Assembly (NCBI RefSeq): GCF_020523795.1
Contig: NZ_JAJALI010000001.1
Coordinates: forward strand, 806,001-870,000
Length of the DNA stretch: 64,000 bases
Direction of reading: 5' to 3'
Origin: Ancylobacter sp. Lp-2
Lineage (GTDB): Bacteria; Pseudomonadota; Alphaproteobacteria; Rhizobiales; Xanthobacteraceae
The notes under the pieces are model-generated. The model was not told the origin of the DNA and searched no databases. It saw only the letters and a list, made by a program, of their open reading frames with translations. A program made the position numbers and the translations under genes. Of this stretch, positions 5,412 through 22,223 are shown piece after piece; the first letter of the stretch is position 1; each line of letters opens with the position of its first letter.

Positions 5412-6257
5412 CTATTTCCGCCGCGGTGCGGGGGCGATACCGAAGCGGGTCGCGAAGACATGGGTGAAGGCGCTCTCCATTGCCCGCTGATAAGCGGCGC
5501 CGTCGGTTGCCAGCAGCCGCAGTCCCGCCCCGCAGCCTTCCGGTAGTAGGCTGGCGCCGGCAAGGCAGCCGGGGGCACCGCTGGCATCCTCCCACGCCGC
5601 GGCGTCCGCTGTTCCGGACCGCCGCAGCCACAGCGCGCTGCCCGCCACGCGCCGGCCGTGCAGCGGTCCGTCGGACCGGGCGAGATCGGTGCCGTCGACG
5701 CTTTGCCGGTCGCTGGCCACCAGAAGGCCGTCGCGCCGCATGTCGACCCGGTTGCGGTAGAAGAGCGGCGCCCCACCGGCGCCTTTTGGGTCATGCAGCA
5801 GCAGGGCGTCGGCGATGAGTGCTTCGGCATCGTCGATAAGATTGACCGCGACGCGGCTATCGACGGCGGCGCCGGGGAACAGGATCTGCGGATCCGGCGT
5901 ATAGGCGAGAAAGCCGCCGTTCTCGACCTCGATTTCCAGGCGTATGCGTGCCGGCCGACCGCGATCGCCCTGCACGATGGTCGAGGCCTGCGTCGTGAGA
6001 TGCAGCGCCGCGCCGGCGCCGACCCGCACCCGCATGGTGAGATCCTCGCCGGCATAGAGGCCGCCGGAGGAGGACTGCACATAGAGCGTGGCCACCTCCG
6101 GCCGCTCGGCGTCGAGCGCGAACAGCCGCGTCAGGTGGAAGGGATAGGTGACGAAGCGCCCGACGAGGCGGCTGGCCGGCCCGCGCCGCTCGACGGCGAT
6201 GTCGAGTTCGGGCCGCTTGCGGCGGGTGGTCGCCGGAGGGGCAAAGGGAGCGTTCAT
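5412..6257 (-). CDS. ureD: Urease accessory protein UreD
   Basis: A 281-residue UreD, the scaffold that binds apo-urease together with UreF and UreG during nickel delivery. Family signatures are [27 protein letters not shown] and [12 protein letters not shown]. The ATG overlaps the ureG stop as ATGA, so it is the last and coupled gene of the urease run ureE-F-AB-C-G-D. Length is normal for the family. Confidence 0.92.
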
Positions 6258-6898
6258 CGCCGGATCAACACCGCCTCGACGATAGCGTCGGCGACCGCCT
6301 CGACTTGGAGACCCGACCGGCAGGCGGTGGCGATGAGCGGCCGGCCGCCACGCACTGCGCGCGCTTCCTCCAGCATGAGGTCGAGATCGACCCCGACATG
6401 CGGCGCGAGGTCCACCTTGTTGATCACCAGCAGGTCGCATTGCAGCACGCCCGGCCCGCGCTTGCGCGGAATGTCCCCGCCGCCGGCGACGTCGATGACG
6501 AAGATCCACCAGTCGACGAGGTCGAGCGAGAAGGTCGAGGCGAGGTTGTCGCCGCCGGATTCGATGATGACGAGTTCGAGCCCGGGAAAGCGGGCGTCGA
6601 GTTCGTCGGCGGCCAGCATGTTGAGGGTCGGGTCCTCGCGGATCACCGTGTGCGGGCAGGCGCCCGCCTCCACCGCCAGCACCCGCGCCGGGTCGATGAC
6701 GCCGGAGCGACGCAGCCGCTCCGCGTCCTCGGCGGTGACGAGGTCGTTGGTGACGACGGCGATCGAGATGCCGCGGCGCTCCAGCACCGGCAGCAGCGCC
6801 TCGATGAGCGCGGTCTTGCCGGAGCCGACCGGGCCGCCGATGCCGATGCGGGCGGCATTGGCCGGCACGGCGTTGAGGATGGGAGACATCAGGCCCAT
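6254..6898 (-). CDS. ureG: Urease accessory GTPase UreG
   Basis: A 214-residue SIMIBI-class GTPase that drives nickel insertion into urease. The P-loop GGPVGSGKT is at residues 21-29, the nickel-binding Cys-Pro-His at 81-83 (EAGACPHT), the metal/switch block [12 protein letters not shown] follows, and the guanine-specificity motif is NKVD. It sits 4 bases after ureC and overlaps ureD. All expected catalytic features are present. Confidence 0.95.
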
Positions 6899-6902
6899 TT
6901 CG

Positions 6903-8612
6903 TCACCTCAGCATGTAGCGCTGCGTCAGCGGCAGCTTCGTCGCGGGTTCGCAGGTGGCCAGCACGCCATCGACATAGACGTCGAAGGTCGCGGGGTTCA
7001 CCTCGATGGCCGGCAGGGCGTCGTTGCGCAGCATGTCGGCCTTGGCGAGCGAGCGGGTGCCGCGCGCGGGCAGCAGCCGCTTGGTGAGGCCGAGCGTGCC
7101 GGCGAGGTTGTCCTCGATGGCGAAGGGATGGACGAAACAGGCCGACAGCGCCTTAGCCGCGCCGGCGAAGGCGCCCCATTGCGGGCGCAGCGCCAGCGGC
7201 TCGCAGGTCATCAGCGACGCCGCGCTGTCGCCCATCACCCCCCAGGCGATGAAGCCGCCCTTGATCACCAGCTCCGGCTTGATGCCGAAATAGGCCGGCC
7301 GCCACACCACGATGTCGGCCATCTTGCCGTCCTCCAGCGAGCCGACATGGGCGTCGATGCCGAAGGTGCGGGCGGCATTGATGGTGTATTTGGCGATGTA
7401 GCGGCGGATGCGCTCATTGTCGCCGAACGTCGCCTCCTCCGGCAGGCGGCCGCGCTGGTCCTTCATCTTGGAGGCCAACTGCCAGGTCCTGCAGATCACC
7501 TCGTGGATGCGCCCCATGCCCTGGCTGTCCGAGCCCAGCATGGAGATGGCGCCGATGTCGTGCAGGATGTCCTCGGCGGCGATGGTCTGCGGGCGGATGC
7601 GGCTCTCGGCGAAGGCCACGTCCTCCGGGATCGCCGGGTTGAGGTGGTGGCACACCATCGTCATGTCGAGATGTTCGTCGAAGGTGTTGACCGTGTAGGG
7701 ATTGGTCGGGTTGGTCGACGACGGCAGGCAGTGGGAGTAGCCGGCGACACGGATGATGTCCGGCGCATGGCCGCCGCCGGCGCCTTCCGTGTGGTACATG
7801 TGGATGGTGCGGCCGGCGATGGCGGCCATGGTGTCTTCCAGGAAGCCGCTTTCGTTCAGCGTGTCGGTGTGGATCTGCACCTGGAAGTCGAGATCGTCAG
7901 CCACCTTCAGGCAGGTGTCGATCGCCGCCGGCATCGAGCCCCAGTCCTCGTGCAGCTTCAGGCCGAGGGCTCCCGTGCGCATTTGCTCGACGAGGGACGC
8001 CGGGCGATGCGAGTTGCCGCGGCCGAGGAAGCCGAAATTGATCGGCCAGGCTTCGGAGGCCTGCAGCATCTTGCCGACATTGAACGGTCCGCCGCAGTCG
8101 ATGCCGACGGTGATCGGGCCGAGCGAGCCGCCGATCATGGTGGTGATGCCCGAGGAGATGGCGTGCTCGCAGAGTTGCGCGCTGTCGAAATGCACGTGGA
8201 CGTCGATGGCGCCGGCGGTGGCGATCATCCCTTCGCAGTCGCGCACCGTGGTGGCGGCGGAGACCAGCAGGCGCGGGTCGACGCCGTCCATGATCGCCGG
8301 GTTGCCGGCCTTGCCGAGGCCGACGATCCGGCCGTCCTTGATGCCGAGGTCGCCCTTGACGATGCCGAGCACCGCGTCGATCACCACGACGTTGCACAGG
8401 AGCATGTCGAGCGCGCCCTCGGCGCTGGTCAGGCCGGCGACGGTGCCCATGCCGTCTCGGAGTGTTTTGCCGCCGCCATGCAGGCACTCCTCGCCATAGA
8501 CGGCGTGGTCCTTCTCGACCACGGCGATCAGCGAGGTGTCGCCGAGGCGCACCCCGTCACCGGTGGTGGGGCCATACATGGCGGCGTAGTCGGCGCGGCT
8601 CATTCGGGCCAT
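6903..8612 (-). CDS. ureC: Urease alpha (catalytic) subunit
   Basis: A 569-residue catalytic subunit that hydrolyses urea to ammonia and carbamate at a di-nickel centre. All ligands expected by analogy with Klebsiella urease are present: His139 and His141 (DVHVHF), the lysine to be carbamylated, Lys219 (GLKLHEDWG), His221, His248, His274, flap Cys321 and His322 (VCHHL), Arg338 and Asp362. The start at 8612 follows a GAAGGACGAC site. The segment just after the first His pair departs from the usual sequence (HFDSAQLC and [15 protein letters not shown], where most ureases have HFICPQ and GGGTGPAxGT), placing it in a divergent lineage that pairs with a fused UreAB. Confidence 0.93.
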
Positions 8613-8631
8613 GATGTCGTCCTTCTTGTGT

Positions 8632-9324
8632 TCAGGCGCCGCGGAAGCCAGCGGCGCGGGCGCGGGCGAGCGCCGCCGGCGCGGCATCCGCTCCGGTCGG
8701 GCCCTCGGCGAGGCGGTTGAGGCCGCTCACTTCGCCGCGGCCGCCAAAGGCCACCAGCGCCACTTCCTTCGATTGGCCGGGCTCGAAGCGCACCGCCGTG
8801 CCGGCGGGGATGTCGAGCCGCATGCCGAAGGCGCCGGCGCGATCGAAGTCGAGCGCCTTGTTGGCCTCGAAGAAATGGAAATGGCTGCCGATCTGCACCG
8901 GCCGGTCGCCGGTGTTGACGACGGCGAGGCGGCCGGTGCGGCGCCCGGCGTTCAGCTCGATCTCGCCAGGCGCGGCGATGATCTCGCCCGGTACTCGTGC
9001 CTCCTCGGGGAGGATGTGGCCGGTGCGGATCGGCTCGTGCACGGTGACGAGCTTGGTGCCGTCGGGAAAGGTCGCCTCGACCTGCAGCATCGGCAGCAGG
9101 GCGGCGACGCCCTCCATCACGTCGTCGGTGGTGAGCAGGCTGGCGCCGAGCTCCATCATCTCGGCGACGCTGCGCCCGTCGCGGGCGCCTTCGAGGATCT
9201 CGTCGGCGATCAGCGCCGTCGCCTCGGGGGCGTTGAGCTTGCAGCCGCGGGCGCGGCGCTTCCGCGCCAGCTCGGCGGCGGAGAAGATGGTGAGGCGTTC
9301 ATATTCGGTGGGGGTCAGCAGCAT
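8632..9324 (-). CDS. ureAB: Urease gamma-beta fusion subunit
   Basis: A 230-residue fusion. Residues 1 to about 100 are the gamma subunit ([40 protein letters not shown]) and residues about 110-215 the beta subunit ([47 protein letters not shown]). Gamma and beta are separate in most bacteria and fused in some lineages such as Helicobacter. It lies between ureF and ureC, consistent with co-assembly into the apo-urease. Confidence 0.93.
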
Positions 9325-9333
9325 GGCGCAGCC

Positions 9334-10014
9334 TCAATTGGAGAACAGGCGCAGCGGCAGGCGGACCTGGCGCGCGGCGGCGATCTCGGCGAAGGGGGAG
9401 AAGCCGGTGGGGTCCTGATCGTCGGCGACCGGCTCGGCGGCGCAGCGGGCGACCGTGTCGAGCAGCCGCGGCATCAGCGCCTGGGCGCCGAGCGCGCCGA
9501 CGAGCCCCAGCCGCGTCGCAGCGGCGAGCCCGCCGGCGACCAACTGGTAGCCGGCGAGCGCGGTGGCCGCCGCCTCGTCCAGTCCCGAGGCGCGCCAGAG
9601 CAGCCCCTGCACGGCGGCCAGCGTGCCCGGTGCCTCGCCGGACAGGATGCGCCCGCGATAGGCGCCGGCGCCGGGGGTGCCGAGCCGGGCATGGGTGGCG
9701 AGCAGCGCCGCGCCGTTGCGGCGGGTTCCGGCCCGCAGCGATTCGCTGAAGGTGGAAAGGTCGAGGTCGCGGTCGAGCGCGGCGACGGCGTCGAGATCGT
9801 CGCCGGCCCGATGGCAGCGCGCCAGCGTCACCCGCTCGGCAGGGGCCCAGCGATGGCGGATCTGTTCGTCGAGGAAATCCGCGACGGCCTGCGCGTCTGG
9901 CCGGGCATCCCGCACGGCCGCAAGACCTTCCAGCCCCTGCGAGAAGGCGAAGCCGCCGCCGGGAAAGGTGGTGTCGCCGAAGCGCAGCGCCGCGAGCAGC
10001 GTGCCGAATTCCAC
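9334..10014 (-). CDS. ureF: Urease accessory protein UreF
   Basis: A 226-residue all-alpha protein that bridges UreD and UreG in the activation complex. The N-terminal FGDTTFPGGGFAFSQGLEG motif (family form FPxGxFxxSxGLE) and the AERVTLARCHRA segment identify it. It is separated from ureE by 3 bases and from ureAB by 9, so it is tightly co-transcribed. Confidence 0.9.
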   Translation of the reverse strand: MEFGTLLAALRFGDTTFPGGGFAFSQGLEGLAAVRDARPDAQAVADFLDEQIRHRWAPAERVTLARCHRAGDDLDAVAALDRDLDLSTFSESLRAGTRRNGAALLATHARLGTPGAGAYRGRILSGEAPGTLAAVQGLLWRASGLDEAAATALAGYQLVAGGLAAATRLGLVGALGAQALMPRLLDTVARCAAEPVADDQDPTGFSPFAEIAAARQVRLPLRLFSN

Positions 10015-10017
10015 GGC

Positions 10018-10509
10018 TCAGTGCCCCGCTTCCGCAGCCGGCACCATGACGCGACCTTCGGCGATCAGGTCGCGGATGCGGTCGAGATAGGCCTGGCGCG
10101 GTCCCTCCAGCGCGATCTCGACCTCCTCGCCGGCGAAGCGCACCTTCCAGTGCAGGTTGCCGGCGGCATAGCCGAGCTGCAGCGCGTCGGGCAGCGAGGC
10201 CGGGCGCAGGCGCAGCCAGGCCTGTTCCTGGGCGCGCAGCACGATGGCGCGGTGCGGCTCCAGCAGCAGGATCGCGCCGTCGAACAATTGCTCGCTGCGC
10301 GGCAGGGCGATCAGGCAGGTGGTGCCTCGGTCGGTGGTGACGCGCAGGCGGCGGCGGGTCATGTCGCGGGTTTCGAGCCGCACGGTTTCGACCTCGCCGT
10401 CCTCCTCCATATGGTGCAGCCGGTGGCCGAGATCGTGGTCGAGCCGCGATCCGACGATGGCGGCGACGAGAACCGCGTCTTCGGTGGGAACGGGGGCGGG
10501 AGCGCTCAT
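10018..10509 (-). CDS. ureE: Urease nickel metallochaperone UreE
   Basis: A 163-residue UreE-type nickel donor. The N-terminal peptide-binding domain contains RLRVTTDRGTTCLIALPRS, and the C-terminal metal-binding domain contains the conserved AAGNLHWKVRF, whose His is the dimer-interface nickel ligand in this family. There is no His-rich tail; it ends in EAGH. It is the first urease gene after amiE, with a 106-base gap that holds a strong palindrome. Confidence 0.85.
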   Translation of the reverse strand: MSAPAPVPTEDAVLVAAIVGSRLDHDLGHRLHHMEEDGEVETVRLETRDMTRRRLRVTTDRGTTCLIALPRSEQLFDGAILLLEPHRAIVLRAQEQAWLRLRPASLPDALQLGYAAGNLHWKVRFAGEEVEIALEGPRQAYLDRIRDLIAEGRVMVPAAEAGH

Positions 10510-10615: not shown

Positions 10616-11656
10616 TCAGCGGTGGCCGGTGGCGATCTTGGTGGGGATGCCCTCGATCGGGCAGTCCTCGACGCCGGGAGCGGAGCGGGTGATCGCCTCC
10701 ACCATGTCGCGCGTCGCCTCCGGGTCGTCGGCCCACTGCTTGTAGAACTGGAAGGGCAGGGCGCAGGTGCCGCGCGGGTCGTCGCCGGAATTGATCATGC
10801 CGGTATAGCCGCGGTGCAGCAGCTTGTAGAGGTGGTTCTGCGCCTGCCCCTTGCTGCGCGCCTCGCGGATCAGCGGCACGGAGAGCTGGGCGAACTGGAT
10901 GCCCATCTCCTCGGTGCCGCATTCGCCGAGGGTGCGTCCGTCGAAGCCGACGATCGCCGAATGGCCGAAATAGGTGTAGACGCCGTCAAAGCCGGCGGCA
11001 TTGGCCACCGCGACATAGACGTTGTTGGCCCAGGCCATCGCCTTGGCCATGACGATCTGCTGCTCCTTGGCCGGGTACATGTAGCCCTGGCAGCGCACGA
11101 TCAACTCGGCGCCCTTCATGGCGCAGTCGCGCCAGATCTCCGGGTAATTGCCGTCGTCGCAGATGATCAGGCTGATCTTCAGCCCCTTGGGGCCTTCCGA
11201 AACATAGGTGCAGTCGCCGGGATACCAGCCCTCGATCGGCACCCAGGGCATGATCTTGCGGTATTTCTGAACGATCTCGCCCTTGTCGTTCATCAGGATC
11301 AGCGTGTTGTAGGGCGCCTTGTTGGGGTGCTCCTCGTGCTGCTCGCCGGTGAGCGAGAACACGCCCCATACGCCGGCGGTGCGGCAGGCCTCGGCGAAGA
11401 TCTCGGTCTCCTCGCCGGGGATCTGCGAGGCGGTCGCGTACATCTCCTTGGAGTCGTACATGATGCCGTGGGTGGAGTACTCCGGGAAGATCACCAGATC
11501 CATGCCGGGCAGACCCTGCTTCATGCCGATCAGCATGTCGGCGATCTTGCGGGCGTTGGCCAGCACCTCCGCCTTGGTGTGCAGGCGCGACATCTTGTAG
11601 TTGACCACCGCGACGCCGACCGAATCCCGGCTCGAGGTAATGTCTCCGTGGTGCAT
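10616..11656 (-). CDS. amiE: Aliphatic amidase
   Basis: A 346-residue nitrilase-superfamily amidase, the same length as Pseudomonas aeruginosa AmiE and very similar to it. The catalytic triad falls at the same positions: Glu59 (FPEYS), Lys134 (KYRKIMPW) and Cys166 ([12 protein letters not shown]). It hydrolyses short-chain amides such as acetamide to carboxylate and ammonia in the cytoplasm. The start follows GGGAGACTAGCC. It lies 49 bases after the transporter ATPase gene and before ureE. Together with amiC and amiR upstream, this defines an amide-inducible operon that continues into urease. Confidence 0.95.
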
Positions 11657-11705: not shown

Positions 11706-12410
11706 TCAGACGGCGATGTGCCGGTGGATGAGGTCGTCGGTCAGCTGGCCGATCGGCCCGGCGGCGACGGCGCGGCCCTTCTCCAGCATGGCGAAGTGGT
11801 GGCCGGCGGCGCGGGCGAAGGCGACGTTCTGCTCGACGAGGATGATGGTCAGCCCCTCCTCGGTATTGAGGCGGACGACGATGTTCTGGATCTCCTCGAC
11901 GATGTTGGGCTGGATGCCTTCGGTGGGTTCGTCGAGCAGCAGCACCGAGGGTTCGGCGGAGAGCGCTCGGGCGATGGCGAGCTGCTGCTGCTGGCCGCCG
12001 GACAGCACCCCGCCCGGGCGGTCGAGGTTCTGCATGAGGTAGGGAAACAGCTTCGGTACCAGCGGCGGGATGCCGCCGCGCGCGCGGCCGCGTCCGGTCG
12101 TCGCGAAGCCGCCCATCAGGATGTTCTCGCGGATCGAGAAGTCCGGGATGATCTGGCGTCCCTGCGGCACATAGGCGATGCCGGCGCGCGCCCGGCGGAA
12201 GGTCGGCTCGGCCGAGAGGTCGTGCCCGTCGAGGCGGATGTGGCCGGCCATCCGGTCGGTCAGCCCCATGATGGTCTTGAGCAGCGTGGTCTTGCCGGTG
12301 CCGTTGCGCCCGACGATGGCGGTGATCTGCCCGGTGGGAACCTGAAGGTTCAGTCCGTGCAGGATGTGGCTGCGGCCGTAGAAGCTGTCCACCTGGTCGA
12401 GGCTGAGCAT
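11706..12410 (-). CDS. urtE: ABC transporter ATPase, UrtE/LivF type
   Basis: A 234-residue ATPase. Walker A is [10 protein letters not shown], signature [15 protein letters not shown], Walker [24 protein letters not shown] after Walker B is typical of UrtE, the second ATPase of urea/amide importers in the branched-chain amino-acid family. The start overlaps the preceding urtD stop by one base. Substrate specificity is inferred from the neighbouring amidase and urease genes. Confidence 0.88.
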
Positions 12411-13186
12411 CACTGGATCCCCTTCGAGCCGAGATAGGCGGCCTTCACCTCCGCATTGGCCTCGATCTCGGCGACGCTGCCCTCGGCGAGGATGCGGCCG
12501 AGATGCATCACCGTGATGCGGGTAGCGATCTCCTTGACGAAGGCCATGTCGTGCTCGACCACGATCAGCGTGTGGCGCCCGCGCATGGCCTTGATGATCG
12601 CCGCGGTCTTCATCGTCTCCGCCTCGGTCATGCCGGCGGTGGGCTCGTCGAGCAGGATGAGCTTCGGGTCCTGCGCCATCAGCATGCCGAGCTCCAGCCA
12701 CTGGGTCTCGCCGTGGCTGAGGCTGCCGGCCTCGACCTCCTGCTTGGCATTGAGGCCGACGAGGTCGAGGATCTCCTCCACCCGCCGGGTCTGCTCCGGC
12801 GAGAAGCCGAGGCGCAGATTGGCGAAGACGCTCGGATTGCGGCAGGCCGCCACCTCGATGTTGCGACGCACGCCGAGGTCGCGGAACACGCTGGGGATCT
12901 GGAACTTGCGGCCGAGGCCGGCCTGGGCGATGCGGTGTTCCTCCAGCCCGGTGATCTCGGTGTCGCCGAGATAGACATGGCCGGCGGTCGGCCGGGTCTT
13001 GCCGGAGACGAGGTCCATCAGCGTGGTCTTTCCGGCGCCGTTGGCGCCGAGCAGCACCCGTAGCTCGCCGGCCTCGACGATGGTGGAGACGGTATCCACT
13101 GCGCGGAAGCCGGCGAAGTCGACGGTGAGCCCGTCAAGGGTGAGCGCCGCGCTGACGGCGGGGGTGCCGATCGGGGTCCGGGCCAT
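12410..13186 (-). CDS. urtD: ABC transporter ATPase, UrtD/LivG type
   Basis: A 258-residue ATPase with Walker A LGANGAGKTTLMDLV, the UrtD-style GKTRPTAGHVYLG and GLGRKFQIPSVF blocks, a shortened signature SLSHGETQWLELGMLM, and Walker B LILLDEPTAGM. The ATG at 13186 follows a GAGGAGCTGAGT site next to the urtC stop. It works with UrtE to energise the permease pair. Confidence 0.88.
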   Translation of the reverse strand: MARTPIGTPAVSAALTLDGLTVDFAGFRAVDTVSTIVEAGELRVLLGANGAGKTTLMDLVSGKTRPTAGHVYLGDTEITGLEEHRIAQAGLGRKFQIPSVFRDLGVRRNIEVAACRNPSVFANLRLGFSPEQTRRVEEILDLVGLNAKQEVEAGSLSHGETQWLELGMLMAQDPKLILLDEPTAGMTEAETMKTAAIIKAMRGRHTLIVVEHDMAFVKEIATRITVMHLGRILAEGSVAEIEANAEVKAAYLGSKGIQ

Positions 13187-13188
13187 AC

Positions 13189-14328
13189 TCAGCTCCTCTT
13201 CTCGGCAGGTTCGGCAAGCGAGGCTGCCGCCCCGCCGCGGCGGGCGACGATCCAGTCGCGCAGGCCGGTCGCGACCCCGGCGAGACCGCGCGGGAGGAAC
13301 AGCACGGCGAGGACGAAGGCGAGGCCGATGACCACGCGCCAGGCTTCCATCAGCGCTGGCGTCTCGGAGACCGTGGCCTCGATCATGTTGATGAGAATGG
13401 CGCCGATGCAGGCGCCGAGGATGGAGTTGCGCCCGCCGACCGCCGCCCACACCACCATGGTGATGGAGAAGGAGAGGTCCATGAAGGTGGGCGAGGCGAA
13501 TTCCGAGGCCATCACATAGAGGATGCCGGCATAGCCGGAGATGGCGGCGGAGACGCAGAAGAAGAACGCCTGGTAGCGCGGCACGTCGAAGCCGAGGAAG
13601 CGCGCCCGCCGGTCGTCGTCGCGAATGGCCTGCAGGATGAGGCCGGAGCGGGTCTCGACCAGCAGGCGCGTGCCGAGGAGCACCAGCGCGAGGCTGATGG
13701 CGATCAGGTAGTAGGTCTGCGGCATGTAGGGGTCGAACTCGACCCCGAGAACGGTGAGATAGCCGAGGTCGGTCAGGCCGTTGAAGCCGTTGGTCAGCGG
13801 CTGCGCCTGCACCAGCAGCAGCCGCATCAGCAGCACCACCGAGAGGGTGATGATCGAGATGAACACGCCGGAGATGCGCTTGCGGAACATGATCATGCCG
13901 AGCGCGAAGGCCACCAGCACCGGCAGCACGATGCCGGCGGCGATGCCGAACCAGACGCTCTGGAACGGGATCCAGAGGAACGAGCCCGGAGTGATGCAGC
14001 ACAGGTCGGTGGCGGCCCCGGGCTGGGCATTCCACAGCATGAAGTCAGGGATCGGCGTGTCCGAGCCCTGCGCCAGGCTGGTGGTGCTGGCCAGCTTCAG
14101 CGACATCGCGATGCCATAGGCGCCGAGGCCGAAGAACAGTCCCTGGCCGAGATTGAGGATGCCGGCATAGCCCCAGGACAGTGCGATGGCGACGCCGAGC
14201 ATGCCGAAGACGAGATATTTCGACAGGCGATTCAGCCAGAAGGCGTCGAACACCAGGGGCGCGAGCAGGATGAGGGCGATGAAGACGACATAGGCCGCCG
14301 TGTTGAGCCCGGATTTGGTGAGCCGCAT
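13189..14328 (-). CDS. urtC: ABC transporter permease, UrtC/LivM type
   Basis: A 379-residue polytopic permease. It carries the LivM/UrtC hallmark GILNLGQGLFFGLGAYG, an extended periplasmic region (PDFMLWN and CCITPGSFLWIPFQSVW at about 75-105) and the cytoplasmic loop AIRDDDRRARFLGFDV that contacts the ATPase. It is separated from urtD by 2 bases and from urtB by 1 base. Confidence 0.87.
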   Translation of the reverse strand: MRLTKSGLNTAAYVVFIALILLAPLVFDAFWLNRLSKYLVFGMLGVAIALSWGYAGILNLGQGLFFGLGAYGIAMSLKLASTTSLAQGSDTPIPDFMLWNAQPGAATDLCCITPGSFLWIPFQSVWFGIAAGIVLPVLVAFALGMIMFRKRISGVFISIITLSVVLLMRLLLVQAQPLTNGFNGLTDLGYLTVLGVEFDPYMPQTYYLIAISLALVLLGTRLLVETRSGLILQAIRDDDRRARFLGFDVPRYQAFFFCVSAAISGYAGILYVMASEFASPTFMDLSFSITMVVWAAVGGRNSILGACIGAILINMIEATVSETPALMEAWRVVIGLAFVLAVLFLPRGLAGVATGLRDWIVARRGGAAASLAEPAEKRS

Positions 14329-14329
14329 C

Positions 14330-15223
14330 TCAGCGTCCCCTGTAGGAAAACAGGCCCTTGGGCTTCCAGATGATCACCGCGATCACCACGGCGAAGATCA
14401 CGGCGCGAGCGATGATGTCGTTGCTGACCGCGGCGGCGAGGCCGTTGATCTGGCCGAGTATGGCGGCGGACAGGATCGAGCCCATCAGGCTGCCGACGCC
14501 GCCCATCACCACGACGAGGAAGCCGTCGACCACCATCGGCGTGCCCATGTCGGGGAACACCGTCTTGAAGCCAGCCATCAGCACGCCCGCCACCCCGGCG
14601 AGGCCGGAGCCATAGGCGAAGGCGAGGGCGTTGATCCGCCGGGTGTCGATGCCGCAGGCCGCCGCCATCTGCGGGTTGCGCATGATGGCGCGCAGCTGCA
14701 TGCCGATGGAGGTGCGGTACATCAGGAACCAGGTGAGGGCGGCGAGCAGCACCGACACCAGGATGATGAAGGAGCGGTAGACGCTGATCTCGGTGCCGGC
14801 CACGCTGAACACGCCGCCCAGCCAGGGTGGCAGGCTCACATTCTGCAGCCCCGGCCCGAGGCCGGCGATGGTGATGCCGAGGAAGGCGAAGCCGAAGGAC
14901 AGCCGCACCGCCTGCTGGATCAGGATTGCCACGCCCCAGGTGGCGAGCAACGTGTCGAGCAGCCGTCCGTACAGCCGCCGCACCACCAGGCGCTCGATGG
15001 CGAGCCCGATCGCCGCGGTGACCAGGAAGGCGATCGGCATTGCGGCGATGAGGCCGAGGCCGAGATAGAGGCTGGCCATGACGGCGGTGTAGGCGCCGAT
15101 CATCACCATCTCGCCATGCGCCATGTTGATGACGCCCATGGCGCCATAGGTGATGGCGAGGCCGAGCGCCACGAGCAGCAGCACCGAGGCGAGGCTGAGG
15201 CCGATGAAGATCGTGTCGACCAT
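14330..15223 (-). CDS. urtB: ABC transporter permease, UrtB/LivH type
   Basis: A 297-residue permease with the LivH/UrtB signature LGLAITYGAMGVINMAHGEMVMIGAYTA at its N terminus and the ATPase-coupling loop RAIMRNPQMAAACGIDTRRI. It lacks the long N-terminal extension of many UrtB proteins, so it is closer in size to LivH. It follows the binding-protein gene after a gap containing a 20-base palindrome. Confidence 0.87.
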   Translation of the reverse strand: MVDTIFIGLSLASVLLLVALGLAITYGAMGVINMAHGEMVMIGAYTAVMASLYLGLGLIAAMPIAFLVTAAIGLAIERLVVRRLYGRLLDTLLATWGVAILIQQAVRLSFGFAFLGITIAGLGPGLQNVSLPPWLGGVFSVAGTEISVYRSFIILVSVLLAALTWFLMYRTSIGMQLRAIMRNPQMAAACGIDTRRINALAFAYGSGLAGVAGVLMAGFKTVFPDMGTPMVVDGFLVVVMGGVGSLMGSILSAAILGQINGLAAAVSNDIIARAVIFAVVIAVIIWKPKGLFSYRGR

Positions 15224-15250
15224 GAAGCGGATGCTCCGTGTGCGGAGGAG

Positions 15251-15294: not shown

Positions 15295-16548
15295 TCAGCC
15301 CTTCAGCTTCGCGGTGTCGAGGCCGGCGGGGGTGCAGAACAGGTTCTGCTGCGTCTCGCCATAGGCGACATAGGGCAGCGGGAAGACCGGCTCGGGATAG
15401 GCGTCGACGATCTTGCCCTGGCCGTCGGCCTGCCATTGGGCGATGCGCGGGGTGAGGGCGGTGTGGAGATTCTCCTTCTCCACCGTCACCTTGCCGCCCG
15501 GCGCGTCGAAGCTCTGTCCGCCGACCGCGGCCAGCACCGCTGCCGCGGAGGTGTCCTTGGCCTGCTCCACCGCCTTCTTCCAGAGATAGACCTGGAAATA
15601 GGAGGATTCGAGCGCGTGATGCGTCACCGCCTTGGGGTCGTTGACGAATTTGCGGTAGCGCTCGACGAAGGCCTTGTTGGCCGGGGTGTCGATCGCCTGG
15701 AAATAGGGGAAGGAGGTGTAGCTGCCCACCGCATATTCCGCGCCCATCGCCGCGATCTCGATCTCCGAGGTGACGGTGGCGCAGATCGGCAGCTTGTCGT
15801 GCGACAGGCCCTGGTTCTTGAACTCGCGGTAGAAGGCGATCACCGAGTCGCCCACCACGTTGGAGAGCACGACGTCGCAGCCGGAGCTCTTGATCTTGTT
15901 GACCATCGAGCCCCATTCGGAGTGGCCGAGCTCGAGATATTCGTCGGCTACCCACTCGCCGCCGTTCTTCTCGATCAGGATCTTGGAGACCTTCGCCATC
16001 TCGCGGGGGTAGATGTAGTTCGAGCCGACGATGAAGAACTTCTTCTTGCCCAGCGTCTTGATGATCCACGGGATGAAGTTCGACAGCTGCTGGTTCGGCA
16101 CGGCGCCGGTGTAGACGACGTTCTTCGAGCACTCGAAGCCTTCGTAGTAGGTCGGGTAGAACAGCGCCGCCTTGCGCTTCTCGAACACCGGCAGCACCGC
16201 CTTGCGGCTCGCCGAGGTGTAGCAGGCGAACACGGTCGGCAGCCGGTCCTGGATGACGAGCTTGGAGGCCTTCTCGTTGAAGGTCTTCGGGTCGGAGGCG
16301 CCGTCCTCGATCACGGCCTCGACCTGCTTGCCGAGCACGCCGCCGGCGGCGTTGATCTCGGCGATGGCCATGCGGGTGGCGTCGGTGAGCGAGCGCTCGA
16401 CGATCGACAGGCCGCCGGTCTGGGAGAACAGCACGCCGACCTTGATGGTATCGGCGGCGGCGGCGCGGGTCAGCAGCGCCGGGGTGGCGACCGCTCCGGC
16501 CGCGAGGGCGGCGGAGGTGGAGAGAAACTGGCGACGGTTCATCGACAT
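15295..16548 (-). CDS. urtA: Amide/urea ABC transporter substrate-binding protein, Tat signal
   Basis: A 417-residue periplasmic binding protein of the UrtA/FmdD/AmiC branch. It opens with a Tat signal (MNRRQFLSTSAALAAG, cleavage probably after TRAAAA), then IKVGVLFSQTGGLSIVERS, TRMAIAEINAAGGVLG and YPTYYEGFECSKNVVYTGA. It is related in sequence to the cytoplasmic AmiC encoded further upstream, which supports a shared ligand class (short amides or urea). AGAGGAATCCC precedes the ATG. It is the first gene after the attenuator at 16708-16780. Confidence 0.88.
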   Translation of the reverse strand: MSMNRRQFLSTSAALAAGAVATPALLTRAAAADTIKVGVLFSQTGGLSIVERSLTDATRMAIAEINAAGGVLGKQVEAVIEDGASDPKTFNEKASKLVIQDRLPTVFACYTSASRKAVLPVFEKRKAALFYPTYYEGFECSKNVVYTGAVPNQQLSNFIPWIIKTLGKKKFFIVGSNYIYPREMAKVSKILIEKNGGEWVADEYLELGHSEWGSMVNKIKSSGCDVVLSNVVGDSVIAFYREFKNQGLSHDKLPICATVTSEIEIAAMGAEYAVGSYTSFPYFQAIDTPANKAFVERYRKFVNDPKAVTHHALESSYFQVYLWKKAVEQAKDTSAAAVLAAVGGQSFDAPGGKVTVEKENLHTALTPRIAQWQADGQGKIVDAYPEPVFPLPYVAYGETQQNLFCTPAGLDTAKLKG

Positions 16549-16707
16549 GGGATTCCTCTGGGAGACGGGCTCGGGGACCGGAAGATTTGTGGGGGCGCGC
16601 GTCGTCGTTCGCGCAGCCCGGTAGGGGCGCGGCGTCTGGCGTGCGGCTCGGGGAGCCTCGAAATCTGCTCAGGAAGGGGGATGACGGCCCTGTCAGACCC
16701 CGAAAAC

Positions 16708-16745
16708 AAAAAACCCGGGACGCTCCCCTCGGGGAGCGGCTCGGG
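16708..16745 (-). terminator. Intrinsic terminator (attenuator) ahead of the transporter operon
   Basis: On the minus strand CGCTCCC-CGAG-GGGAGCG forms a perfect 7-bp stem with a tetraloop, extended by outer CCCG/CGGG pairing and followed by six T. It lies between amiR and urtA in the direction of transcription, about 160 bases before the urtA start, so it would stop transcripts entering the transporter-amidase-urease genes. Confidence 0.8.
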
Positions 16746-16780
16746 CTACCTAGCCAATGCGAACCGACAGCACTGTCTGG
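16744..16780 (-). promoter_or_regulatory. Candidate ANTAR (AmiR) target RNA, leader 1
   Basis: Two hairpins precede the terminator. The first (16764-16780) is a short stem GAC/GTC with flanking CC/GG and hexaloop AGTGCT, with A at loop position 1 and G at position 4, the rule for ANTAR-bound loops. The second (16744-16755) is GGC-TAGGTA-GCC, with G at position 4 but not A at position 1. Its 3' arm shares two bases with the outer terminator stem, as expected if AmiR binding blocks termination. Confidence 0.6.
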
Positions 16781-16829
16781 CTCGCGATGCTGAAAAAATC
16801 AGCAAGTTCAAAACTGAACACGAAATGAA

Positions 16830-17438
16830 CTAACCACTGTTCTTCGGGAAATGCAAGAGCTCGTTCGCGTTGATGATCGAGGTGGCGATCTCGTCCATCG
16901 AGGCGCGCTTCGACATCGCCTGCTGGCGGATCGTCTCATAGGCGGCTTCCTCGCCGATGCCGTGGATCGACATCAGGATCGCCTTGGCCTTCTGGATGCG
17001 CTGCATGCTGGAGAGGCGGCGCTCCAGCTTGTTCAGGCGCTTCTGCTGCTCCAGCCGGTCCTGCCAGAGCCCGCGCGCCAGCAGCAGGTTGGTCAGCACG
17101 CCGAAGGGACGGATCGGGCGGTCCATCGCCGCCAGCACGCCGATCTCGAACAGGATCTCCAGCGTGCTGGGATTCTCGTAGTCGACGATGGCGATGATGG
17201 CCGGTGGAATGCCGTCCATGCCGCGCGCCAGGCGGATGATGTCGGCGCGATGCTCATGGTCGATGGAGAGGAACAGCGTCGCCGTGCGCGCCGGGATCTC
17301 CTTCGGGATCGGCCACGCGGCCTCCGTGTGGCAGCCGATGCGGCGCAGATGGTCGATCAGCGTGCGTCCGTCGGCGTCGGGCGGGTGCACGACGAAGACC
17401 GGAAGTCCCTTCAGCGACTTGAGAGGGGGGATGGCCAT
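16830..17438 (-). CDS. amiR: AmiR-type ANTAR transcription antiterminator
   Basis: A 202-residue RNA-binding antiterminator, close to the length of P. aeruginosa AmiR. Residues 1 to about 125 form a degenerate receiver-like domain. A coiled coil follows (LEQQKRLNKLERRLSSMQ), and the C-terminal ANTAR domain is at about 145-200 (QRIQKAKAILMSIHGIGEEAAYE, with alternating QAMSKRASMDEIATSI). In the known system AmiC holds AmiR inactive until an amide binds, after which AmiR dimers bind leader RNA and prevent termination. It starts 4 bases after amiC, and two candidate RNA targets flank the pair. Confidence 0.92.
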   Translation of the reverse strand: MAIPPLKSLKGLPVFVVHPPDADGRTLIDHLRRIGCHTEAAWPIPKEIPARTATLFLSIDHEHRADIIRLARGMDGIPPAIIAIVDYENPSTLEILFEIGVLAAMDRPIRPFGVLTNLLLARGLWQDRLEQQKRLNKLERRLSSMQRIQKAKAILMSIHGIGEEAAYETIRQQAMSKRASMDEIATSIINANELLHFPKNSG

Positions 17439-17442
17439 GGCG

Positions 17443-18630
17443 TCAGTCGATCTTCGCCGGTTGCGGCACCAGCGACCAGTCGTCGAGCGCCGACGACACG
17501 AAATAGGGATCCGGCTTCATCCGCCGATGCGGATCCCAGACGATCTCGAAGCGCTTTTGCGCATCGACGCGGGCGACGCGTGGCCACAGGAAGGTGTGGT
17601 TGTTGGTCGGGTCCACGGCGACGCGCCCTTGCGGAGCCTCGAACTGTACCCGTCCGAGCGCCTCCACCACGGCGGCCGGTACCAGGCTGCGCGCCTGGTC
17701 GATGGCGGCGGCCACCAGGTGAACCTGGAAATAGGCGGCTTCCGCCGCCGCGGTGATCGGGATGTCCGCCCCGAACATGGCGCGGTAGGCGGCGAGGAAG
17801 CGCCGGTTGGGCTCGGTGTCCAGCGTGGCGAAATAGGGCGCGGCGGTGAAGTGGCCCTCGGCGGCGGCGGCGGACATTTCCGCCACCTCGGCCTCGCTGG
17901 TGGTCAGGCTGGCGATCGGCATGCGCGCCGGATCGAAGCCGGCCTGGCGATAGGCCTCGTAGAGCATGGCCGTGCCGGAGCCGACGACGTTGGAGAAGAT
18001 GACGTCCGGTGAGAAGCGGCGGATCTGGCGGATGGTGCGCTCGAAATCTTCGGGCTTGGGGTCGAGCGGCACATAGATCTCGTCGAGGATCTTGCCGCGC
18101 GATTCGGTCACCAGATCCGAGAAGATCCGGTTGGATTCGTAGGGGAATATGTAGTTGGACCCCACCAGCAGCATCCGCGAGCCATAATGTTCAAGGATGT
18201 GGCGCACTAGCGGCTGGGTGTTCTGGTTCGGCGTGGCGCCGGTATAGATGCAGTTCGGCGAGTATTCGAAGCCTTCGTAGAAGGTCGGGTAGGCGAGCAG
18301 CGCGTTGCGGGATTCCACGACCGGCAGCACCGCCTTGCGGGTGCTGGACATGTAGCAGCCGAACAGGATCTTCACCCCGGCTTCGTCCAGCAGGCGGGTA
18401 GCCTCCTGTCGGAACGTCTTGGGATTGGCCTGGCAGTCCTGTCCGACCGCGACGATCTCGCGCCCACCGATGCCGCCGGCGGCGTTGATCTCGCTGATGG
18501 CGAGGCGCGTCGCGAAGAGCTGGGTCCGCTCGGCCGCGGCGGTGATGCCGGTCTGAGAAAACAGCAGGCCGACGGGAAGGGGGCTGTCGCTCCAGCCAGT
18601 ATCATCATCCGACATTGCAGACATATCCAT
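17443..18630 (-). CDS. amiC: AmiC-type cytoplasmic amide sensor / negative regulator
   Basis: A 395-residue periplasmic-binding-protein fold without a signal peptide: the mature-type sequence PLPVGLLFSQTGITAAAERT begins within 20 residues of the start. Other shared blocks are AISEINAAGGIGG, SSTRKAVLPVVESRNALLAYPTF (split by loops) and YTGATPNQN. The absence of export and coupling to amiR identify it as the AmiC sensor that sequesters AmiR. I use the ATG at 18630; its GGGAG ribosome site is embedded in the 3' arm of the terminator hairpin just upstream. ATGs at 18624 and 18615 are alternatives. Confidence 0.88.
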   Translation of the reverse strand: MDMSAMSDDDTGWSDSPLPVGLLFSQTGITAAAERTQLFATRLAISEINAAGGIGGREIVAVGQDCQANPKTFRQEATRLLDEAGVKILFGCYMSSTRKAVLPVVESRNALLAYPTFYEGFEYSPNCIYTGATPNQNTQPLVRHILEHYGSRMLLVGSNYIFPYESNRIFSDLVTESRGKILDEIYVPLDPKPEDFERTIRQIRRFSPDVIFSNVVGSGTAMLYEAYRQAGFDPARMPIASLTTSEAEVAEMSAAAAEGHFTAAPYFATLDTEPNRRFLAAYRAMFGADIPITAAAEAAYFQVHLVAAAIDQARSLVPAAVVEALGRVQFEAPQGRVAVDPTNNHTFLWPRVARVDAQKRFEIVWDPHRRMKPDPYFVSSALDDWSLVPQPAKID

Positions 18631-18632
18631 GC

Positions 18633-18669
18633 AAAAAAGCTCCCGCTGCGTTCCCGCAGGCGAGAGCTT
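18633..18669 (-). terminator. Intrinsic terminator (attenuator) directly ahead of amiC
   Basis: On the minus strand a stem of about 14 bp (AAGCTCTCGC, one bulged C, TGCG) closes on a GGAA tetraloop and is followed by a T-run, ending 3 bases before the amiC ATG. The 3' arm contains GCGGGAG, the only ribosome site for that ATG, so the hairpin would block both transcription and initiation. Confidence 0.8.
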
Positions 18670-18671
18670 CC

Positions 18672-18703
18672 ACGCTCCTTGGCGCCGGCATCGGCACTGA
18701 TGC
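18672..18703 (-). promoter_or_regulatory. Candidate ANTAR (AmiR) target RNA, leader 2
   Basis: The first hairpin (18688-18703) is a perfect 5-bp stem GCATC/GATGC with hexaloop AGTGCC (A at position 1, G at position 4). It matches the AGTGCT loop of leader 1, and both are preceded by GCCAG. The second hairpin (18672-18685) is GCGC-CAAGGA-GCGT with G at position 4. The terminator at 18633-18669 follows 2 bases later. The arrangement implies AmiR controls its own operon. Confidence 0.65.
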
Positions 18704-18836
18704 TGGCCCTTGTTCGCGAAAAGGCTAGCGCGCGCTGCCGGCCATAGCAAGCCGTGAACTGCGCCCCCGGCGTCGGAGCGGCGCGGTCGCTTCCGCCGCT
18801 GCCGGTGCCGAGGGCGCTGCCGCGCGACGGCGGATG

Positions 18837-19805
18837 TCAGCCGGCGGAGGGCATTGTCGGGGGCGTCGTCGCGGGAGCCGTCGCCGACGGGACCGGGCGC
18901 GGTTGGCGTAGCGCGTCGGTCGCGTGGCGGACCGCCTCGGAGATCTGCAACAGCTGCTTGGCCAGCGGGCTGGTCCGGCGCCAGACCATGCCGATGGTGC
19001 GCGACGGTTCGGGCTCGCGGAAGCGGGCGATGGAAACGCCGGCCGAGCGCGTCTCCACCGGCACGGCCATTTCCGGTATCAGCGTGACGCCGATGCCGGC
19101 ATCGACCATCTGCACCAGCGTGGACAGGGAGCTGGCATCGAGGAAGTCGCGCGGCGGCGCGGCGCGCATGTCCACATTGCAGAAAGACAGCGCCTGGTCG
19201 CGGAAGCAGTGCCCCTCCTCCAGCAGCAGGAGCCGCATCTCGCGTACCGCCTCGGGATCGGGTACCGGCTTGCCTTCGTCCGCGCCCGGCCGCACCAGCA
19301 CGAAGCTTTCGGTGAACAGGGTGATCTCGGTCAGCGCGGGTTCGGAGACCGGCAGCGCGACGATGGCGGTGTCGAGCCGTCCCTCTTCCAGCTCCTGCAG
19401 CAGCCTCGGCGTCTGCGTCTCGCGCACGTGGATGTCGAGGCCCTTGTGCAGAAGGCTCAGTTTGCCGAGCAGCGTCGGCAGAAGATAGGGCGCCACCGTG
19501 GGGATGACGCCGATGCGCAGGCGTCCCACCAGCCGGTCGCGCGAGACGCGGGCGAGGTCGCCCAGCTCGTCGACCGAGCGCAGAATGTCGCGGACGCGCG
19601 GCGCGAACTCCTCGCCAAAGCCGGTGAGGCGGACCTGGCGGGCGCCGCGCTCGAACAGCTCGATGCCGACCTCCTCCTCCAATTCCTTGATCTGCATCGA
19701 CAAAGCCGGCTGCGAGATGCCGCAGGCTTCCGCCGCGCGGCGGAAGTGCCCGTGCCGCGCCAGGGCCTCGAAATAGCGGAGCTGCTTGAAGGTGAGGTTT
19801 TTCAT
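18837..19805 (-). CDS. oxyR: OxyR, peroxide-sensing LysR-family activator
   Basis: A 322-residue LysR regulator with an N-terminal helix-turn-helix (FKQLRYFEALARHGHFRRAAE, SQPALSMQIKELE). The redox pair of OxyR is present: Cys200 and Cys209 in EEGHCFRDQALSFCN, equivalent to Cys199/Cys208 of E. coli. It is divergently transcribed from katG across a 240-base region, the usual arrangement for H2O2-induced catalase control. The C-terminal 25 residues are a Pro/Thr/Ala-rich tail. Confidence 0.93.
   Translation of the reverse strand: MKNLTFKQLRYFEALARHGHFRRAAEACGISQPALSMQIKELEEEVGIELFERGARQVRLTGFGEEFAPRVRDILRSVDELGDLARVSRDRLVGRLRIGVIPTVAPYLLPTLLGKLSLLHKGLDIHVRETQTPRLLQELEEGRLDTAIVALPVSEPALTEITLFTESFVLVRPGADEGKPVPDPEAVREMRLLLLEEGHCFRDQALSFCNVDMRAAPPRDFLDASSLSTLVQMVDAGIGVTLIPEMAVPVETRSAGVSIARFREPEPSRTIGMVWRRTSPLAKQLLQISEAVRHATDALRQPRPVPSATAPATTPPTMPSAG

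Positions 19806-22223
<2,418 letters not shown>

Follow-up and report, generated by a model that had tools for sequence, protein, structure and literature searches.

How might a bacterium wire an amide sensor and its antiterminator into the operons that they control? Among the closest described systems is amiEBCRS of Pseudomonas aeruginosa, where a single attenuation leader, whose 100 nt have been described as the small RNA AmiL (PMC9045362), precedes amiE, and the regulatory genes amiC and amiR lie later in the same AmiR-activated (antiterminated) operon (PMC5259723). Several dual-hexaloop attenuators of the ANTAR type per locus are known from the eut genes of Enterococcus faecalis, which have four, with the second hairpin (P2) overlapping the terminator (PMC3369931, PMC5821096); their antiterminator EutV is a phosphorylated response regulator, whereas AmiR is released by AmiC instead. 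Release of an ANTAR protein by a sensor, and leader antitermination, are also features of NasST, which controls nos and nas genes in Bradyrhizobium but is nitrate-responsive and has another regulon (PMC6759348). Here we describe an amiC-amiR locus of Ancylobacter sp. Lp-2, contained in a 64,000-nt stretch of contig NZ_JAJALI010000001.1 (positions 806,001 to 870,000; henceforth the window). It shares with P. aeruginosa both regulator families, the amidase and an attenuation leader before structural genes (PMC5259723, PMC9045362), but differs in layout: The regulators come first, behind an attenuator of their own, followed by another attenuator that gates the transporter, amidase, and urease genes. 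On the minus strand, the order is leader 1, amiC, amiR, leader 2, urtA-urtE, amiE, ureE, ureF, fused ureAB, ureC, ureG, and ureD. We consider it very probable that the leaders represent two separately promoted ANTAR-type transcription attenuators under one AmiC/AmiR pair.

Both leaders display the same succession of a P1 hairpin, whose six-base loop has A at position 1 and G at position 4 (A1 and G4), a P2 hairpin with a six-base loop that has G4 and lacks A1, and an intrinsic terminator (Table 1). A sequence-only reading of this DNA had located both terminators and both A1/G4 hexaloops, and we confirm them at the positions it gave; the GCCAG that it saw ahead of both loops is present at this locus, but is unconserved in relatives and was dropped as a conserved feature. 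As in eut, the 3′ arm of P2 is part of the 5′ arm of the terminator, and the eut core AGCAANGRRGCUY resembles P2 of leader 1 (PMC3369931, PMC5821096). Folding energies favor the terminator over the P1+P2 form, with a margin of 11.0 kcal/mol for leader 1 and of 7.2 kcal/mol for leader 2, and in the predicted fold of RNA cut right after P2, the P1 and P2 stems form; in leader 2, one extra inner pair per loop is then predicted, so the free RNA would have tetraloops. Such predicted folding, with a terminator favored unless P2 is held, would be the appearance expected of a protein-dependent antiterminator. The linker between P1 and P2 spans ~10 nt in leader 1, and in leader 2 either ~3 nt with the full P1 stem or ~10 nt with its top three pairs only. 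Searching Rfam returned no match at the gathering threshold and no relevant one when E was relaxed to 10, and a generic terminator and promoter scan listed neither leader terminator, probably because both stems are interrupted.

A covariance model built from leader 2 alone (R1) recovers both leaders: At E up to 1, it has two matches only in the window, namely leader 2 itself (53.3 bits, E 9.1e-12) and leader 1 (18633-18710; 25.9 bits, E 9e-5). Leader 1 was not listed by a genome-wide R1 search, in which 150 of 7917 first-look candidates were scored. For leader 2, we assembled 37 loci of one AmiR group, the window locus included, in all of which it lies directly after amiR. Outside this set are a locus whose frame runs off (L074; its genome, G536, has an R1 match), three loci with no leader found (L080, L081, L082), the duplicates L002, L034, and L035, and the more distant AmiR loci L011-L033, L049-L056, and L058-L063. 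Throughout the 34 copies aligned with MAFFT (the near-copies L047, L068, and L070 were left out), G4 is invariant in both P1 and P2, as are the C-G pair that closes P1 and the GGC/GCC stem letters of P2. The P1 and terminator stems covary (0.398 versus 0.191 shuffled, with 0 of 500 shuffles as high), and 84.1% of stem cells are paired, versus 71.8% shuffled and at most 51.6% when slid; double-sided pair changes are less telling, being matched in 37 of 500 shuffles. When chosen by energy only, with no letter rule, the assigned P1 loop was picked in 32 of the 37 loci, the disagreements being L039, L065, L073, L075, and L078. As determined by tblastn and Pfam, the gene after leader 2 is amiE in 24 loci, urtA in 11, and ureE in two (L010 and L042, where Pfam identifies the first long frame as UreE); amiE or urtA begins 54 to 557 nt past the T-run, with only short frames in between at the longest of these distances (L009). 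In Shinella, amiC, amiR, and ureE even stand in direct succession. With ureE directly after leader 2 or amiR in some loci, the urease genes are plausible members of the AmiR regulon.

Which letters define these loops? As a control, we took each letter and loop position in turn and counted, under a fixed rule, the loci in which two hairpins spaced as in ANTAR targets both carry that letter there. G4 is shared in 33 of 37 leader-2 loci, the window locus among them, compared to no more than 14 of 37 for any other letter or position, and in 3 of 37 on the antisense strand. Among the assigned leader-2 loops, G4 is present in 37/37 P1 loops and 34/34 P2 hexaloops, and A1 in 31/37 and 8/34, respectively. 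The P1 loops of leader 2, the loops of elements preceding amiC, and those of the hairpin P3 (see below) were assigned with the G4 rule in view, so more trust belongs to the unbiased tests, namely this letter control and a free-letter pick for P3. A P2 without A1 departs from the published ANTAR-target consensus, and the sequence-only reading had regarded it as a weak point. Among relatives, however, A1 of P2 varies while G4 stays, so its absence is normal here. Given that A1 makes no specific contact in the EutV structure (PMC8934654), we treat it as non-essential.

Are the two gates arranged in series or in parallel? Promoter-like sequences precede both leaders, and by eye the same TTG-N17-TAG spacing recurs before leader 1 in L004, L005, and L007. 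At the end of amiR, TTGNNN-N17-YTAR is found in 29 of the 37 loci, and in none of the 37 at any of five offset controls. With a putative promoter of its own at each leader, the gates look parallel and are likely so rather than serial. The former description of two serial attenuators hence stands as to the two attenuators, while their serial order is doubtful, since leader 2 is apparently transcribed from a promoter of its own. A serial arrangement, with one long transcript from the amiC promoter through both gates and leader 2 lacking a promoter, is rather unlikely. In its favor, the putative −10 element is in most loci the amiR stop codon, and coding constraint confounds the conservation of the motif, which may be partly coding. 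Against it, besides the offset controls, stand L005, L046, and L047, in which the amiR stop is shifted but the motif keeps its place, now on the downstream side of the stop, as well as E. faecalis, where separate promoters are present at three of the four attenuator regions of eut (PMC5821096).

For leader 1, R1 detected pre-amiC elements in L004, L005, L065, L069, L077, and L079 when applied to 50 other loci (6 of 14 pattern-positive), and a pattern search added L006, L007, and L010 plus the Aminobacter loci L012, L018, L019, L020, and L022. Together with the window locus, this makes 15 loci with a pre-amiC attenuator among the 57 on the AmiR tree. Its P1, picked by eye, is readable with A1 and G4 in 15/15, if a one-base bulge is allowed in L010, L012, L018, L065, and L069, and P2 has a six-base G4 loop in 14/15. 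The trait changes five times on the AmiR tree, with at least four changes forced by supported branches, indicating that the attenuator was gained or lost several times; the elements fall into five separate AmiR clades (Hyphomicrobiales). By pattern and printed sequence, none was seen in Bradyrhizobium-like loci or the sister Ancylobacter group (16 loci were judged by pattern without printed sequence, and the L048 stretch has no amiC). Such absences in many relatives, and a terminator nearly on the amiC start codon, would suit a scenario in which leader 2 is a true AmiR target, whereas leader 1, its hexaloop arising by chance, is an ordinary terminator that ends transcripts from upstream, for instance of the LysR gene, and amiC-amiR is constitutive. 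We hold this to be very unlikely, as R1, trained without leader 1, finds it at the E-value given above, pre-amiC elements recur in five clades, an A. polymorphus plasmid copy with a different upstream gene keeps the element at 35.0 bits, and a promoter-like sequence lies just upstream of leader 1. Conservation of the hexaloop hairpins in orthologous leaders had been set in advance as one of the points on which the sequence-only reading would stand or fall, and the comparison did not refute that reading, leader 2 being conserved in the 37 loci and the pre-amiC attenuator occurring in 15 of 57. Comparison thus supports reading the leaders as ANTAR targets, with one attenuator ahead of amiC-amiR and another gate ahead of the transporter, amidase, and urease genes. 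As a separate observation, in a genome from another family of the phylum (L092, genome G849) an R1 match lies directly before an AmiC-type-looking gene, so pre-sensor attenuators may extend past Hyphomicrobiales.

R1 has a match in 31 of 32 AmiR-bearing genomes. When 398 genomes of the phylum were searched (E up to 0.01), 21 had a match, Ancylobacter sp. Lp-2 included, and by eye about half of the other 20 matches precede nitrogen genes (nirB-like, nitrate reductase-like, nitrate-binding-like, urtA-like, permease, nitrilase, AmiC-like sensor), as expected of ANTAR targets. R1 E-values are rough, and as genome searches score part of the candidates, the regulon lists are incomplete. A dual-hexaloop attenuator after NasT-like and NasS-like genes was sought by script and eye and not found. 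Three ANTAR genes in the genome and a loop rule that published ANTAR targets share might point to a different partner for the leaders, NasT-like or a second AmiR, but the place of leader 2 directly after amiR throughout the 37-locus set, the near-complete co-occurrence of R1 matches with AmiR, and the presence among the gated genes of amiE, the AmiR target in P. aeruginosa, make this more improbable still. Control by the neighboring AmiR also gains from its alignment with EutV (6WSH), in which AmiR has the Tyr and Met matching EutV Tyr164 and Met172, those that EutV uses on G4 and the loop.

Some observations weigh against assigning both leaders to AmiR as G4-dependent dual-hexaloop targets. 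The genome also encodes a second AmiR and a response-regulator-type ANTAR protein, making cross-talk possible. Distant AmiR relatives have P2 loops without G4, namely AACAAA (L052, L053, L055), AAAAAA (L011, L019, L020, L022), and AGCAGC (L056), and so does L086 with AAUUAA; three of the 37 leader-2 loci have a seven-base P2 loop (L008, L009, L036), and the pre-amiC P2 of L006 has a five-base loop. Support is weaker for leader 1, with G4 shared in 9 of 15 pre-amiC elements in the letter control against 6 of 15 for the next best choice, and R1 missed 8 of the 15 elements seen by pattern. The ~3-nt linker of leader 2 is shorter than the 5–12 nt of E. faecalis (PMC3369931) unless outer P1 pairs open. 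Finally, about half of the phylum-wide R1 matches have no recognizable nitrogen gene behind them and may be chance.

What would such a circuit do? From the genes and RNA features present, we infer that without inducer AmiC would hold AmiR, the terminator would win over P1 and P2 in both leaders, and a trickle of read-through would supply AmiC and AmiR. Binding of a short-chain amide by AmiC would free AmiR, a dimer of which would then grip G4 of both hexaloops on the nascent RNA, keep P2 folded, and so block the terminator. Read-through of leader 1 would yield more amiC-amiR mRNA, providing positive feedback on sensor and effector together, and read-through of leader 2 would open the urt-amiE-ure unit. 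The terminator of leader 2 might also stop read-through arriving from amiC-amiR.

Beyond the terminator of leader 2 lies a third hexaloop hairpin, P3. At this position, a G4 hexaloop was identified by eye in 26 of the 37 loci, the window locus included, with A1 in 25 of the 26; L047 also shows P3 in its printed sequence but is outside the 26 counted, and by eye none was found in L008, L009, L010, L036, L038, L041, L043, L044, L066, and L073. With letters left free, the top-scoring hexaloop hairpin downstream carries both A1 and G4 in 19 of 37 loci, whereas 300 shuffles gave 1.19 on average and never more than 5; these 19 do not include P3 of the window, where another register scored higher. 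Hexaloops as such are not in excess after the terminator, as stems of at least six pairs with 4-, 5-, 6-, 7-, and 8-base loops occur in 13, 4, 13, 5, and 15 of 37 loci, respectively, so the evidence for P3 rests on its loop letters. Its stems covary (0.383 versus 0.160, 0 of 500 shuffles) in 23 aligned copies that were chosen for having P3, and its 12-base pattern is not unusual in the window alone, where it was present in 19 of 100 shuffles. Being transcribed only after read-through, P3 cannot help the same polymerase, and our guess, by analogy with EutX, is that it may offer an extra AmiR contact on the read-through mRNA, as a sponge or holding site. In E. faecalis, EutX carries a terminator-free EutV site on a separate sponge RNA (PMC5821096), whereas P3 lies in cis. 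Pairing between P1 and P3 was considered and dropped, given the mismatched stems of L037; beyond P3, the check for another terminator or one more hexaloop was made by eye only. The searched text of PMC3369931 and PMC8164766 makes no mention of a third hexaloop after the terminator.

A further paired-hexaloop element lies in trans. In the Ancylobacter sp. Lp-2 genome (G000), R1 finds C11:663245-663321 (L106:5246-5322; 37.1 bits), an element ~159 kb away from amiR whose loops are AGGGCC and AUGGAA and which immediately precedes genes for a CbbQ_C/AAA_5 protein (CbbQ/NorQ-type AAA+) and a VWA protein. Plasmid pB of A. polymorphus carries the whole amiC-amiR-urt-amiE-ure cluster and, beyond its end, a CbbQ/VWA pair in convergent orientation; R1 detects three leaders in this region, one ahead of amiC (35.0 bits), one behind amiR (64.8), and one ahead of CbbQ (29.1). 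A CbbQ match is present in 30 of the 32 AmiR-bearing genomes, and in 26 of the 30 it shares a contig with amiR at a distance of up to 20 kb (exceptions G000, G095, G178, G402). Applied upstream of CbbQ, a strict paired-hexaloop rule is satisfied with A1/G4 in 11 of 30 loci and with each of the other 15 letter choices in 0 of 30; shuffles gave a mean of 0.27 and a maximum of 3 (200 shuffles), and control regions 0, 0, and 1 of 30. Nine of the 11 positives come from Ancylobacter and are not independent, and seven need a one-base bulge in P2; for L128, whose contig begins just before the gene, the rule was applied to a stretch other than the upstream one. At E up to 0.001, R1 matches before CbbQ in L120, L121, L126, and L128, of which L126 and L128 are additional to the rule, so that by one method or the other a leader is detected in 13 of 30 loci and missed in 17. 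Several of these leaders have no clear U-run. We regard the CbbQ/VWA pair as a candidate third target of AmiR. A plasmid operon that carries CbbQ-family and NorD-like genes besides amiE, amiC, and amiR has been described independently (PMC13209695). Another R1 match in the same genome, C22:556432 (23.3 bits), precedes a dehydrogenase-like frame and was taken as chance, and an 18.3-bit match inside a gene of L115 illustrates that such scores arise by chance. Only tentatively, and with more doubt than confidence, do we combine these features into an AmiR regulon of three operons (its own genes, the amide-urea unit, and CbbQ/VWA in trans), in which P3 would act as a third AmiR hairpin that tunes positive feedback, a cis counterpart of the EutX sponge.

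Table 1. Leader elements and genes of the amiC-amiR locus, with positions in the window and the basis of each assignment
Feature	Position	Strand	Basis
Leader 1 promoter-like sequence, TTGCTA-N17-TAGCCT (-35 18745-18750, -10 18722-18727)	18722..18750	-	deduced from sequence
Leader 1 P1 hairpin, GCAUC-AGUGCC-GAUGC, hexaloop with A1 and G4	18688..18703	-	sequence, fold, R1 match
Leader 1 P2 hairpin, GAGC-GUGGAA-GCUC, G4 without A1, overlaps terminator 5′ arm	18664..18677	-	sequence, pattern search
Leader 1 intrinsic terminator, T6 run	18633..18668	-	sequence, fold
amiC, cytoplasmic amide sensor	17443..18624	-	Pfam Peripla_BP_5; best PDB match 1PEA (P. aeruginosa AmiC), E 4.6e-107
amiR, AmiR_N and ANTAR antiterminator	16830..17438	-	Pfam; PDB 1QO0 chain D, E 4.8e-22
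Leader 2 promoter-like sequence, TTGCAT-N17-TTAGTT, overlapping amiR stop codon	16828..16856	-	deduced from sequence; conservation
Leader 2 small upstream hairpin P0 (TGCTGA/TCAGCA)	16788..16804	-	sequence and fold; similar stem by eye in L004, L005, L007
Leader 2 P1 hairpin, core GAC-AGUGCU-GUC, hexaloop with A1 and G4	16759..16785	-	sequence, alignment, R1
Leader 2 P2 hairpin, GGC-UAGGUA-GCC, G4 without A1, overlaps terminator 5′ arm	16744..16755	-	sequence, alignment, letter control
Leader 2 intrinsic terminator, T6 run	16708..16747	-	sequence, fold, covariation
P3 hairpin 3′ of terminator, core GAC-AGGGCC-GUC (16683-16694), A1 and G4	16677..16701	-	conserved in relatives
urtA-like binding protein, pocket altered and partly AmiC-like	15295..16548	-	Pfam; NCBIfam UrtA 410.1 bits; alignment to 8HIC
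urtB, urtC, urtD, urtE (permeases and ATPases)	11706..15238	-	NCBIfam; same order on plasmid NZ_CP083241.1
amiE, aliphatic amidase	10616..11656	-	NCBIfam PRK13286, 692.5 bits; PDB 2PLQ, E 2.4e-190
ureE, ureF, fused ureAB, ureC, ureG, ureD	5412..10509	-	NCBIfam and Pfam

The encoded proteins fit an amide-responsive locus in that an AmiC-fold sensor, with no signal peptide by eye, stands beside an AmiR_N and ANTAR protein; the start of amiC is ambiguous among ATG codons at 18630, 18624, and 18615. UrtB, UrtC, and UrtE score above their NCBIfam cut-offs, UrtD was scored minus its N-terminus, and the UrtA-like protein stays below the curated UrtA cut-off of 492.75 bits. In Prochlorococcus UrtA, mutation of any of five residues abolished or strongly reduced urea binding (PMC10392092). 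When aligned to 8HIC, whose numbering is used here, the UrtA-like protein differs at three of the five, with Tyr in place of Trp120, Tyr in place of Gln144, and Val in place of Asn246, and retains Ser122 and Tyr190; the Tyr and Val substitutions are the same as in AmiC. With three of five urea-binding residues changed, two of them as in AmiC, the UrtA-like protein may be a binder of short-chain amides and the transporter's cargo possibly such amides. The urease gamma and beta subunits are fused into one 230-residue protein (8632-9324). Upstream of leader 1 (18837-22223), a LysR gene, OxyR-like by eye, diverges from a catalase-peroxidase-type gene, seemingly unrelated to leader 1.

Elsewhere in the genome, a second amiC-amiR pair is followed by urt-like genes and an FmdA acetamidase/formamidase gene (L108:4380-12197; G000:C22); this amiC2 is preceded by a G4 hexaloop P2 (GGC-AAAGGC-GCC) and a terminator, with a possible P1 far upstream. 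In A. polymorphus ZM13, the complete ami-urt-ure cluster is plasmid-borne (L115, NZ_CP083241.1 8034-40627). The closest AmiR relatives are from Ancylobacter species, and on the AmiR tree the window's version groups with Chelatococcus, not with the other Ancylobacter group. Plasmid cluster and tree position suggest horizontal spread.

How much of this is new? Serial ANTAR attenuators and self-inclusive ANTAR operons are already known, and since amiC and amiR of P. aeruginosa lie inside the antiterminated operon, positive feedback as such is not new either; urea transporters are likewise named among the results of a published ANTAR search (PMC3369931). Within the literature text that was searched, we found no report of a dedicated amiC-amiR attenuator, a hexaloop after the terminator, or ANTAR control of CbbQ/VWA. 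ANTAR antitermination is widespread in nitrogen metabolism, and the present locus shows a recurrent design in which a sensor-antiterminator pair sits behind its own attenuator. To this, our data offer two additions: one more hexaloop past the terminator, and paired hexaloops of the same kind ahead of a chaperone operon. The constant of P2 in this leader family appears to be G4 rather than A1, consistent with the EutV structure. Finally, the split layout makes feedback experimentally separable from output.

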